A DNA stretch of 64,000 nt from Jiangella aurantiaca (GTDB taxonomy: Bacteria; Actinomycetota; Actinomycetes; Jiangellales; Jiangellaceae): the NCBI RefSeq assembly GCF_004349105.1, contig NZ_SMLB01000004.1, positions 62,001 through 126,000 of the forward strand, written 5' to 3'. The notes beneath the pieces are model-generated. The model saw only the letters and a program-made list of their open reading frames with translations. It searched no databases and was not told the origin of the DNA. This document shows positions 16,532 through 55,221 of this stretch, piece after piece. The position numbers and the translations under genes were made by a program. Position 1 is the stretch's first letter; each line of letters starts with the position of its first letter.

Positions 16532-16600
16532 GGTAGCGTTTGAGGCCGTAAAACGGTAGCGTTTGAAACCGTAAAACGGTAGCGTTTGAGCGCGAAGAAC
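16532..16600. repeat. three tandem 23-bp repeats (iteron-like operator)
   Basis: Units at 16532-16554, 16555-16577 and 16578-16600 all start GGTAGCGTTTGA and end with (G/C)TAAAAC or a variant. The third is diverged. Within the first two units CGTTT is followed by AAACG, so each also has dyad symmetry. They lie directly before the ATPase gene and are likely an operator or promoter region. Confidence 0.8.
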
Positions 16601-51724: not shown

Positions 51725-52831
51725 CTACGCGGCGACGGCCGCGGGCCGGCCGGCGCGCGGCCGGCGGGCGATGTGCCGCGCCACGTACTCGGCGTCCCGC
51801 CCTGCGCCGCCGACCAGCATGGAGCTGAATGCGCTCTGGAAGGCCAGGCCGGTGAAGTAGAGGCCGGGCGACGACGGCACGACGCCGCGCTCCTCCAGGG
51901 GCCAGCCGTCGTCGCCCAGGACCGGCAACCGGATCCAGGTGAAGTCTTGCCGGAACCCGGTGCACCAGACCACCGTCCCAATGTCCAGCACCCGGCCGCC
52001 GTCGAGCACCGGGTTCCCCTCCCGCACGCCGGTGACCCGCTCGGGGATCCACTCGACGCCGGCCGCGGCGAGGTCGTCCGCCTGGACCCGCAGCAGCGGG
52101 CCGCCGTGAGTGCGGATCTCCGGGCGCATCTTGCGTCCGATCGGCGTGCGCAGCGTGAACACGTGCCGGGCCAGGAACCAGAGCACCGGGAACGCCGCCT
52201 GCGCGCGCCGCGACTCCAGCGGGACCGGGAGCTGGCCTCTCGAGTGGCCGCACAGGATCGTATGGTGCTCGCGGGCGGTTTCGACCGCGATGTCCGCCCC
52301 CGAGTGCGACGCCCCGACGACCAGGACGGGGCCAGGTGCGAGCTGGTCCGGCCGCCGGTACTGGCTGGAGTGCAGTTGCGCGATGGCCGGGTCCAGCTCG
52401 GCCGCGAACGGCGGCGCGTACGCGCGCGTCCCGAACGTCCCCGTCGCCACGACGACGTTGTCCGCCGTGAGCCGCCGGTCCCCGCAGTCGAGGACGTATC
52501 CGGCGCCGTCGTCGCTCTCCGTCAGGGTCTCGACGCGGACGCCGTGCTCGACCGGCAGCTCGAAGCGGGCCGCGTAGGCCTCCAGGTAGTCGGCGACCTC
52601 GTCCTTCGTCGGGAACGCCCGGCCGGGGCCGGGGAAGCGCATCCCCGGCAGCCCGTCGTAGCGCGCCGGGCTGTAGAGCCGCAGCGAGTCCCAGTGGCGG
52701 CGCCAGTTGTCGCCCGTGCGGCGCTGCTCGTCCAGGATGAGGAACGGCCGACGCCGCTTGGCGAGGTGGTAGCCGACGCTCAACCCCGCCTGTCCACCCC
52801 CGACGACGATCGTCTCGATGTGCTGATCCAT
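51725..52831 (-). CDS. flavin-containing monooxygenase/NAD(P)-binding protein
   Basis: 368 residues. The FAD-binding motif GGGQAG is at 11-16 and a second Rossmann motif GASHSGADIA follows near 172; WCTGFRQDF is the ATG-like C-terminal motif. Such proteins resemble CzcO/TrkA-type flavoproteins and oxygenate or reduce small molecules with NADPH; the substrate is not predictable. It is convergent with the amylase-pullulanase gene (17 bases between them). Confidence 0.88.
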   Translation of the reverse strand: MDQHIETIVVGGGQAGLSVGYHLAKRRRPFLILDEQRRTGDNWRRHWDSLRLYSPARYDGLPGMRFPGPGRAFPTKDEVADYLEAYAARFELPVEHGVRVETLTESDDGAGYVLDCGDRRLTADNVVVATGTFGTRAYAPPFAAELDPAIAQLHSSQYRRPDQLAPGPVLVVGASHSGADIAVETAREHHTILCGHSRGQLPVPLESRRAQAAFPVLWFLARHVFTLRTPIGRKMRPEIRTHGGPLLRVQADDLAAAGVEWIPERVTGVREGNPVLDGGRVLDIGTVVWCTGFRQDFTWIRLPVLGDDGWPLEERGVVPSSPGLYFTGLAFQSAFSSMLVGGAGRDAEYVARHIARRPRAGRPAAVAA

Positions 52832-53023
52832 GACGCCCTCCCCGTACGTTCCGGCAGGTCAGGCCTCGACGGTAGGAGCGGCGCCGCGGCGGGCGCGTCG
52901 GGCTAACCATGCATCTTCGCGGCCGGCCGGGGATGGGTAGTTCTGTGTAGATGGCGGGCGCCCGCGTCAGGTGGGAGTTGGGTCGGCGTCGGGTCCGCGG
53001 GGTTCACGTGCGCCTGTGCTGCA

Positions 53024-53084
53024 ACGTTGGCCGTCCCCCTGCTGCCCATTCTCTTGGCCGCACAACCGCGCCTCAAGTCCGCCA
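53024..53084 (-). repeat. 50-bp unit, copy a (reverse)
   Basis: On the minus strand: GCGGACTTGAGGCGC, GCGGCCAAGA, GGGCAGCAGGGGGACGGCC. It belongs with copy d (53509-53570), with which it forms the outer inverted repeat. It lacks the TATC found in copies b and c. Confidence 0.75.
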
Positions 53085-53106
53085 TGGGGTCGCTTCGCGA
53101 CGACGG

Positions 53107-53176
53107 GGCGGACTTGACCCGCGGCTCCGCGGCCAAGAACGGGCAGCTATCAGGGGGACGGGGCGAGTCTGGGCAC
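53107..53176 (+). repeat. 50-bp unit, copy b (forward)
   Basis: GCGGACTTGACCCGC, GCGGCCAAGAACGGGCAGC, TATCAGGGGGACGGGG, then GAGTCTGGGCAC. It is the partner of copy c (53402-53469) in the inner inverted repeat. Confidence 0.8.
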
Positions 53177-53228
53177 GACTCGGGGTCCGCAGCCGACGTT
53201 CGGGTCCGCTGTGGGCCTGTCGACCGAC

Positions 53229-53317
53229 ATGATCATCAAGGATCGCCTACATCACGAGGATTACCCGAGCATCAACACGATTGCAGCCGTGTCGATGCTC
53301 GGGTAATCCTCGTGATG
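53229..53317 (+). repeat. dispersed hairpin repeat, copy R3 (most intact)
   Basis: Arms 53250-53273 and 53294-53317 are perfect 24-base reverse complements; inside them ACACG and CGTGT pair as well, leaving the loop ATTGCAGC. The arm is preceded by ATGATCATCAAGGATCGC, as in the other copies. It sits at the centre of the mirror-image units a-d. Confidence 0.85.
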
Positions 53318-53401
53318 GCCCCCGAAACGCCGGCATATCTCACCAGGTGGACGCCGAACGACATCAACGCCACACCGAAGCGGGCCCCACGCCCCGGCGC
53401 C

Positions 53402-53469
53402 GTCGCCACACTCCCCCCGTCCCCCTGATAGCTGCCCGTTCTTAGCCGCGTGCGCGCGGGTCAAGTCCA
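53402..53469 (-). repeat. 50-bp unit, copy c (reverse)
   Basis: On the minus strand: GGACTTGACCCGCGCG, CACGCGGCTAAGAACGGGC, AGCTATCAGGGGGACGGGG, followed by GAGTGTGG. It forms the inner inverted repeat with copy b. Confidence 0.8.
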
Positions 53470-53508
53470 AGGCCCCTAACCACTGAGAACAGCACACAGT
53501 CAGAGGCC

Positions 53509-53570
53509 GCGGACTTGAGGCGCACGCACGCGGCCAAGACAATCGGGCAGCAGGGGGACGGCCCAACGTG
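53509..53570 (+). repeat. 50-bp unit, copy d (forward)
   Basis: GCGGACTTGAGGCGC, GCGGCCAAGA, GGGCAGCAGGGGGACGGCCC; closest to copy a, with which it forms the outer inverted repeat. It ends 17 bases before the stop codon of the minus-strand LuxR gene. Confidence 0.75.
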
Positions 53571-53586
53571 CACTTCCGTGGCCACC

Positions 53587-55221
53587 TCACACGAGGTCGT
53601 GCTCGTAGGCGAACGCGGTCGCCGCGGCGCGCGACGAGACGCCGATCTTGGTGAAGATGTTGCTCACGTGCCGCGCGACCGTCTTGTCGCTGAGCACCAG
53701 CGCGTCCGCGATCGCCCGGTTGCTCCGCCCGGCGGCGACCAGCCGCAGGACCTCCAGCTCCCGGGGCGTCAGCCCGCCGCCCCCCGCCGGGCCGCCGTCC
53801 GTCAGCGTCCGCAGCCGGTCGAGGTCGGGTCCGGCGGAGAGCCGCCGGAACGTCCGCGCCGCCGCGTCGAACTCCACCGCGGCGGCGTCGGCGTCGCCGA
53901 GCTCGCGGCAGGCCAGCCCGACCAGGACCCGGGCACGGGCGGCCTCGTACGGCGTCGCCACGTCATGGAAGCCGGCCCATGACCGCCGCGCCGCGGCCAG
54001 CGCGCCGGCCGGGTCACCACGCGAGAGCCGCACCGACGCCGTCGCGTACGCGGACATCGCGGCCAGCATCGGCACCTGGGCGGCGCCGGCCAGCTCGGCC
54101 AGCTCGGCCGCGGCCGTATCGGCACCGTCGGCGTCGCCGGCCGCCAGCAGCGCCTCGACCAGCGCCGCGAGCAGGGCCGGGCGCTCGATCGGGCTCGGGA
54201 TCTCGTCGAGCGCACGGCGCAGCCCGGCGACCGAGGCCGCCACCCGGCCCTGGTCCAGCCGGAGCAGGGCCAGACCGGGCTGCGGGTCTCGCCCGCTCAG
54301 GCCGGCCAGCCGGTAGGCGTCCTCCGCGGCCGCCACCTCGCCGCGCAGCCGGTGCAGTTCGGCCCGTTCGTAGTGGGCGTCGCCCACGGCCGGCTGGCCC
54401 GGCGGGTCGGACAGCCGGCGGCAGGCGTCTCCGGCCACGGCCAACGCGTCCTGCCAGGCCCCCTGGTCGCGCAGCACGTGAGCGCGGTGCACCTGGCACT
54501 CGCCGCGGTACGGCACGAGGTCCGGCTGAGCCTCGCACCAGCGGCTGAGCGCCGTCGTCCACTCGCGAGCCCGGCGCAGGTCGAACGTCGCCCGGCAGGC
54601 GTCGAGGACGGTGCAGTAGACGATGCCGGTGAGCACCGGCCCGACCTCGCCGGAAGTGACCGCGACCATCACCTCGTCGAGCAGCGCGATACCCTCCGTG
54701 ACCTTGCCCAGCCCGACCAGCGCCCGGCCCTGGCCCATCCGGCCGAGGACCACCAGGTCGACGTCGCGGTGGCGCTGGCCGATGGCGCCGACCTCGGCGA
54801 ACATCTCCGCAGCCACCGCTTCGTCACCGACGGCCAGCATCTGCCGGGCTCGGGCCACGAGCAGGTAGCCGCTCTCGGCGCAGTCGCGCCCGACCTCGTC
54901 GAGGAGGCGGTCGGCCCGGGCCAGCCAGCCACCGGCCTGCGCCTGCTCACCGCGGTTGAACAGGAGGAACGCCAGCCAGACGGCGCACCGGGCGGCCGAG
55001 TGCGCCCGGCCCGCGCGCAGCAGCTCACCGTAGAGCCGTTCCTGCAGGGCCGCGCTCTCGTCGTCGTGACCGGCCAGGTACGCCGAGACGGCCAGCAGCT
55101 CCAGATCGGCGGTGGACAACGGCGACGCGGCGTCGGCGCCCGCGAGCTGCGCATGCGCCTCGGCCCAGGCCCGCCGCTCGAAGGCGGCGCGGCCCCGGTC
55201 CAGCGCCTCGGTTGTGGTCAT
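53587..55221 (-). CDS. LuxR-family regulator with TPR-like repeats
   Basis: 544 residues from the ATG at 55221, preceded by a G-rich ribosome-binding site; an ATG at 55242 would add seven residues. The first 470 residues are Ala/Leu-rich helical repeats of TPR type (for example DRGRAAFERRAWAEAHAQLAGA and ALAVAGDACRRLSD). The C-terminal GerE HTH is LTPRELEVLRLVAAGRSNRAIADALVLSDKTVARHVSNIFTKIGV. There is no P-loop, so it is not a full LAL regulator. It probably senses a partner protein or small ligand through the repeats. Confidence 0.9.
   Translation of the reverse strand: MTTTEALDRGRAAFERRAWAEAHAQLAGADAASPLSTADLELLAVSAYLAGHDDESAALQERLYGELLRAGRAHSAARCAVWLAFLLFNRGEQAQAGGWLARADRLLDEVGRDCAESGYLLVARARQMLAVGDEAVAAEMFAEVGAIGQRHRDVDLVVLGRMGQGRALVGLGKVTEGIALLDEVMVAVTSGEVGPVLTGIVYCTVLDACRATFDLRRAREWTTALSRWCEAQPDLVPYRGECQVHRAHVLRDQGAWQDALAVAGDACRRLSDPPGQPAVGDAHYERAELHRLRGEVAAAEDAYRLAGLSGRDPQPGLALLRLDQGRVAASVAGLRRALDEIPSPIERPALLAALVEALLAAGDADGADTAAAELAELAGAAQVPMLAAMSAYATASVRLSRGDPAGALAAARRSWAGFHDVATPYEAARARVLVGLACRELGDADAAAVEFDAAARTFRRLSAGPDLDRLRTLTDGGPAGGGGLTPRELEVLRLVAAGRSNRAIADALVLSDKTVARHVSNIFTKIGVSSRAAATAFAYEHDLV

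Follow-up and report, generated by a model that had tools for sequence, protein, structure and literature searches.

The window, by which we mean the whole stretch of 64,000 nucleotides of Jiangella aurantiaca DNA that was analysed, contains at 53031–53561 an imperfect inverted repeat of ~530 bp, composed of two arms with a third hairpin between them. We are almost certain that this element is one copy of a foldback repeat that is dispersed in Jiangella. Our best overall reading, which we favour with modest confidence, is that the arms are single-strand origin (sso) hairpins of the rolling-circle type, present here in doubled form.

Architecture of the element

The arms are themselves hairpins, of 133–147 nt each. 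An earlier note on this DNA had described four related units in the order reverse-forward-hairpin-reverse-forward, and we located these at roughly 53031–53080, 53108–53163, 53415–53470 and 53509–53561. A repeat search returned an inner pair, 53110–53185/53393–53468 (84%), and a pair of outer ends, 53020–53047/53545–53572 (86%). The tetranucleotide TATC, which reads ATAG on the opposite strand, is confined to the inner units, as had been claimed. The central hairpin was likewise borne out, its arms 53250–53279 and 53288–53317 matching over 30 nt at 97%. Repeat searches within the left arm returned 53052–53093/53097–53138 (79% complementary) and within the right arm 53440–53480/53499–53539 (80% complementary).

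The complete element folds with a z-score of −16.6, a stability equalled by 0 of 100 shuffles, and the 20-base inner motif occurs twice, allowing up to 3 mismatches, against 0.02 expected. Together with the genome-wide matches described below, these values rule out that the similarity is merely at the chance level of GC-rich sequence. The earlier suggestion of a folded structure of about 550 bases stands in part: such a fold is possible, but conservation and homology favour each arm folding alone, because arms are also found singly, in AICEs and plasmids.

Table 1 Features of the foldback element, in window positions
Feature	Position	Strand	Notes
Left arm, sso-like hairpin	53031..53173	-	Inner to outer on the - strand; R1 match G000:C47:115031-115173 (-), 3.8e-27, arm in the R1 training set
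Left-arm -35-like box TTGAGG	53071..53076	-	Sequence; conserved columns
Left-arm -10-like box GAGAAT	53048..53053	-	Sequence; 17 nt from the -35-like box
Left-arm ATAG bulge	53147..53150	-	Sequence, fold; faces predicted start ~53041
Right arm, sso-like hairpin	53405..53561	+	Inner to outer on the + strand; R1 match 115405-115561 (+), 4.9e-25, arm in the R1 training set
Right-arm -35-like box TTGAGG	53515..53520	+	Sequence; conserved columns
Right-arm -10-like box GACAAT	53538..53543	+	Sequence; 17 nt from the -35-like box
Right-arm ATAG bulge	53428..53431	+	Sequence, fold; faces predicted start ~53550
Core motif TGATCATCAAGGATCG	53230..53245	+	Also in solo ATGATCAT palindromes
Central hairpin	53250..53317		24-bp uninterrupted stem; z -8.06 for 53225-53340
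Core motif ATCTCACCAGGTGGACGC	53337..53354		Alike in several of 11 aligned copies
Outer flank	52980..53030		Degenerate ~19-20-nt GTTsGCCGG-like units, inward-facing, weak here; 19 copies compared by eye

The left neighbour is a flavin oxidoreductase gene (start 52831, minus strand) and the right neighbour a LuxR-type regulator gene (end 53587, minus strand). Several copies elsewhere (e.g. L005, L016, L026 and L034) are flanked on both sides by inward-facing degenerate units of ~19–20 nt, GTTsGCCGGGG, preceded in some copies by a GAGGCTCTCCGACCCGATCCGTGGGTC-like motif. Given these units, the element may extend beyond its arms. At 16532–16590 the window also holds 2.6 copies of a 23-bp tandem repeat, GGTAGCGTTTGAGACCGTAAAAC, AT-rich for this genome.

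A family dispersed in Jiangella

The units are not confined to the window; related copies were found in its own genome and in other Jiangella. The best 40 of 210 candidates scored in the own genome gave at least 126 matches to the element, counted as pieces on both strands. A covariance model of the arm (R1), built from 72 arms of which 67 are distinct, found matches in 10 of the 12 Jiangella genomes, with 44 to at least 150 per genome when the best 150 candidates of each were scored and 74 in the genome of the window; these numbers are rough, as both strands of one arm may count, and so are the E-values of our home-built models. The two remaining genomes, G003 and G006, gave 4 and 2 weak lone matches, respectively, and no paired arms.

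Among 84,980 genomes, the exact 20-base motif returned at least 111 stretches and, among the matches listed, 109 were from Jiangella, one from Kribbella antiqua, where it marks a lone arm, and one from a planctomycete. The Planctomycetaceae match (L060) is probably due to chance: the arm profile was negative there and the second half of the hairpin was not seen. No relatives were found on plasmids searched with the whole element, nor on viral contigs searched with the 20-base motif.

All 77 distinct pairs of arms less than 1 kb apart, a limit of our choice, are outward-facing, with reverse-strand duplicates (L023–L025 and L030) excluded along with the repeats of five pairs found twice. Just beyond this limit, two arms in the same (tandem) orientation lie 1.0 kb apart at L092:3040-4304. 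Long composites of 1.0–1.1 kb occur at L156:2141-3268, where the core is doubled, and at L157:5214-6251. In Kribbella antiqua, two outward-facing arms at L259:9757-10437 enclose an unrelated core that has a hairpin of its own.

Fifteen distinct copies from J. rhizosphaerae (16 loci entered, two being the same place) differ pairwise by 11–24%, with a median identity of 0.83. We therefore rejected a recent burst of copies; the spread is not recent, and the arm architecture nonetheless persists. Since each species is represented by one genome, insertions that are recent would not be visible.

None of the 58 distinct composites with usable flanks lies inside a called gene. Being palindromic, intergenic and multicopy, the family resembles REP or BIME repeats mobilised by RAYT transposases, a connection raised in the earlier note. 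Its arms are far from this type in being 133–147 nt long, and the RAYT family PF01797 was matched in none of the 12 Jiangella genomes (the control was matched in 5 of 14). As 12/12 genomes gave no PF01797 match, we rejected a RAYT-mobilised element, which we consider next to impossible.

Independent palindromes and orthologous sites

The earlier note had also suggested that one palindromic element was inserted into another. Apart from the link to REP and RAYT, which failed, this view held up in that the composite joins distinct palindromic elements, the central type of which stands alone elsewhere. Solo palindromes with ATGATCAT at both ends gave 10–81 matches per genome in 12/12 Jiangella genomes and 0 in the control, and occur also in G003 and G006, which are without paired arms. 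They are ~50 bp long (e.g. G004:C1:218152-218203) and are perhaps terminators, and the central hairpin of the window resembles them. We rejected a dso-like core, as in 24 regions no ATGATCAT came closer than 2.8 kb to an arm that was recognised.

Comparison of orthologous sites agrees with a composite of independent palindromes, since these sites in other species are empty, partial or occupied by the central-type hairpin alone. At the site of the window element, G009 has a short spacer and no clear element, whereas G004, G006, G007, G008 and G010 have a central-type hairpin and lack the full arms, with an arm remnant beside it in G004. Half of the element is present in G002 and a variant arm in G005; the flanks are at contig ends in G011, and G003 gave no clear orthologous pair. 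In G001 (L219) the flanks surround a different core with both arms missing, as if cut out. A second site is empty in G007, G008, G009 and G011, where 5–27 bases separate the matched flanks. It holds a hairpin in G003, G005 and G006, a relic in G001 and most of the element in G002, while one flank was matched in G004 and G010.

Short, dispersed copies outside called genes, and an inverted repeat that occupies two loci in some genomes and leaves them empty in others, would also be produced by a MITE-like passenger, that is, a non-autonomous foldback element moved by some transposase or recombinase, with the arms serving as terminal inverted repeats only. No target duplication was found, the flanks at both sites being too diverged for the exact ends to be placed and a duplication read, nor was an autonomous partner (PF01797 being the transposase family scanned). 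Nor did we notice any widely spaced arms with a gene between them. We regard a purely MITE-like origin as unlikely, in view of the conserved arm positions and RepSA linkage described below.

Strand-specific folding of the arms

Folded as DNA on the inner-to-outer strand, 53031–53163 and 53415–53561 gave z-scores of −11.7 and −8.75, respectively, and the complements of the arms also fold well (−10.8 and −12.2). In the R1 arm alignment, on which the structure itself had been drawn, 14 of 42 pairs changed on both sides, a count reached in 3 of 500 shuffles. Paired cells made up 96.1% of 2795 on the inner-to-outer strand, compared to 88.7% after shuffling and 38–49% when the alignment was slid.

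The mismatches carry a polarity. On the inner-to-outer strand, the composite arms have 106 GU pairs compared to 121 in shuffled alignments, 26 AC compared to 64 and 83 other mismatches compared to 252, and the lone hairpins described below show the same pattern (GU 74 versus 98, AC 7 versus 38, other 51 versus 112), in counts that include related sequences without correction for relatedness. In a DNA palindrome free of polarity, GT and AC should be equally tolerated; GU is kept here and AC depleted, and thus the arms are strand-specific. Strand-specific folding is a property of sso of the RNA-polymerase type; in the arms, whose complements fold too, the polarity rests on the GU/AC balance and on position.

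The GU tolerance would fit RNA as well, and together with the covariation it is what a bidirectional terminator or structured RNA at gene 3′ ends would show. The surroundings of the composites point partly in the same direction. Among 49 composites, neighbouring genes are tandem in 23, convergent in 20 and divergent in 6, compared to 35, 7 and 16 in 58 background gaps, so that convergent gaps are enriched (20/49 versus 7/58, p 0.0008), with genes called by a home-made heuristic caller. These 49 remained of 76 distinct composites after removal of 16 with short flanks, 2 without a gene on one side and 9 with distant neighbours. Against an RNA-level element, 23 of the 49 lie in tandem gaps, and both the promoter spacing and the RepSA linkage would be left unexplained. 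A search of 52800–53800 against Rfam gave no family at the gathering score, the weak matches being microRNA models, and a known Rfam RNA was rejected on this result. We consider an RNA-level explanation rather improbable.

Promoter-like boxes inside the fold

In each arm, a TTGA(G/C)G box is separated by ~17 nt from a GA(N)AAT-like box, and an ATAG bulge lies where the start is predicted. The −35-like box reads TTGAGG in 64 of the 67 distinct arms, TTGACG in 2 and TTGGGG in 1. Using [GA]AN[AC]AT, a pattern of our choice, as the −10-like box, the spacer is 17 nt in 55 of these arms, 16 in 7 and 18 in 1, with none recognised in 4. The sequence of the spacer varies and covaries, and its length is maintained. 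In 20 lone or plasmid hairpins, gathered by similarity and including some near copies so that the conservation is partly due to selection, the TTGA columns are kept in 19–20, the A and the T of the −10-like box in 19 each, and the TA of the bulge in 19 and 18. This A and T are the two key positions of a −10 box. A start seven bases from the −10-like box, as predicted from the sequence, would face the ATAG bulge.

The boxes thus stand at promoter spacing inside the fold, as in RNA-polymerase-type sso, the −10-like box being weak and far from TATAAT. Promoter-like and bulge positions are nearly fixed across the 67 distinct arms, yet copies within one genome differ by the 11–24% noted above, which argues against arms that act as terminal repeats of a MITE. 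The same boxes, TTGAGG-17-GAGAAT/GACAAT at both ends, could instead be outward promoters on double-stranded DNA, driving antisense or read-through transcription of the neighbours. This is very unlikely, as the boxes are far from consensus and the conserved folding, the bulge and the GU asymmetry would have no explanation.

Many lone arms lie near RepSA

RepSA is the rolling-circle initiator of pSAM2-type elements, and AICEs of the RepSA type replicate by rolling circle, which leaves a single strand to be converted. We built a second model (R2) from 27 lone hairpins and ran it over 118 genomes of the class. Outside Jiangella it found 39 places (3 of them in the training set), with Jiangella matches excluded as well as one opposite-strand match, G015:C16:75148, that overlays a counted hairpin (2.9e-7 compared to 7.8e-23). 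Within 20 kb, again a limit of our choice, 22 of the 39 lie near RepSA, at 20 RepSA genes, and all 22 are on the same strand as RepSA; the other 17 have no RepSA within this distance on their contig. Seen from the initiator, 20 alone of 79 RepSA entries outside Jiangella have an R2 match within 20 kb.

In Jiangellaceae, 10 of 20 RepSA regions have an R1 match (E up to 0.1), 10/10 of them on the RepSA strand, and the other 10 have no R1 match. In none of the 20 regions does an R1 match reach the strength of those to composite arms, and the composite was not seen there; the composites therefore lie outside AICEs. In G003, which has no composites, all 4 R1 matches are within 12.2 kb of RepSA and on its strand; the chance of these locations is 2.8e-7, for a radius picked after the fact. 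The genome of the window itself has an R2 match (C9:77464-77611, minus) that accompanies a RepSA gene (C9:69876-71180, minus). A fixed orientation relative to rep on a rolling-circle replicon was thus found for lone arms (22/22 and 10/10, with 17 of 39 lacking a near RepSA), a count to which the composite of the window does not belong. This fixed polarity next to RepSA is a further argument against the MITE-like reading. We conclude that the arm family is very likely common to Jiangella composites and AICEs.

For the gene context of lone arms, we compared 30 proteins, selected from 5 of 13 regions, with Pfam. One region, L255, is an AICE with RepSA, FtsK, GntR and integrase in addition to the hairpin. 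No mobile gene was detected among the proteins compared from L251, L252 and L253; of the RepSA genes near L252 and L253, one is outside the region and one outside the Pfam set. At L254 and L179 (G171), a lone arm is close to a gene for a group II intron maturase, along with repeated fragments resembling a tRNA 3′ end.

Two plasmids gave R1 matches, pPA43082 with its Rep_1 initiator (E 2.8e-5) and Cryobacterium pA10BH1 (1.6e-13), beside a resolvase and a relaxase. R1 matched neither pIJ101 nor pJV1 (L249, L250), 9367 of the 11143 bases of pJV1 being covered, and an sso of the pIJ101/pJV1 type was rejected.

Discussion

The arm hairpin is probably an sso or single-stranded DNA promoter. Once a strand becomes single, the arm would fold, and host RNA polymerase would recognise the duplex −35-like box and, within an internal loop, the −10-like box, start at the template bulged at ATAG and leave an RNA that primes the missing strand. 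With the two arms of a composite on opposite strands, either strand, if single, would fold into one priming site close to the 3′ end, and this site would prime back across the element. Use by RNA polymerase, priming, and any chromosomal role or mobility of the composite are inferred. That the chromosomal composite still uses this function is a tentative suggestion.

The closest known systems are the sso and single-stranded DNA promoters of the RNA-polymerase type. Passages of PMC4595007 describe an sso as a hairpin with promoter boxes on the rep-coding strand of a rolling-circle element, read by host RNA polymerase, and those of PMC11541004 describe Frpo as a folded single-stranded DNA promoter. 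Like ssoA, ssoU and Frpo of the F plasmid, the arms are strand-specific hairpins with −35/−10-like boxes, the known examples belonging to rolling-circle or conjugative DNA and its rep-coding strand; the likeness is one of description. In contrast, the Jiangella arms are doubled and dispersed on chromosomes, and their function is predicted. The sti of pIJ101 and the single-strand origin of pJV1 share the niche of the arms, actinomycete rolling-circle replicons, and differ in giving no R1 match. Priming of pSN22 is reported in PMC4170104 to be independent of RNA polymerase; with pIJ101 and pJV1 unmatched as well, the arm hairpin would be a separate type of sso. A term search of the AICE survey PMC3218068 returned no mention of sso, and we found nothing on the element or on an AICE sso family in the open-access literature.

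In some AICEs of the RepSA/pSAM2 type a lone arm lies close to RepSA; the composite differs in its second arm and its core hairpin. MITEs and foldback elements share with the composite short, dispersed inverted repeats and empty sites, and differ in that the arms are conserved, functional-looking hairpins and that neither target duplication nor transposase partner was found. The likeness to REP/BIME repeats is that of intergenic palindromes, from which the lack of a RAYT match sets the composite apart.

The hairpin family is a concrete candidate sso for RepSA-type AICEs. Jiangella chromosomes might conceivably, though we would not presume it, harbour dozens of strand-symmetric sites for second-strand priming, each a rolling-circle sso doubled around a host palindrome. 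If so, either chromosomal strand would be self-priming wherever it became single-stranded, the lone relatives would be the first sso family for RepSA-type AICEs, and Kribbella would have made a similar outward pair with a different core. The composite would then be unusual, a plasmid priming signal made into a chromosomal repeat, and it raises the question of whether the element should be seen as a parasite or as a restart site that has been domesticated.
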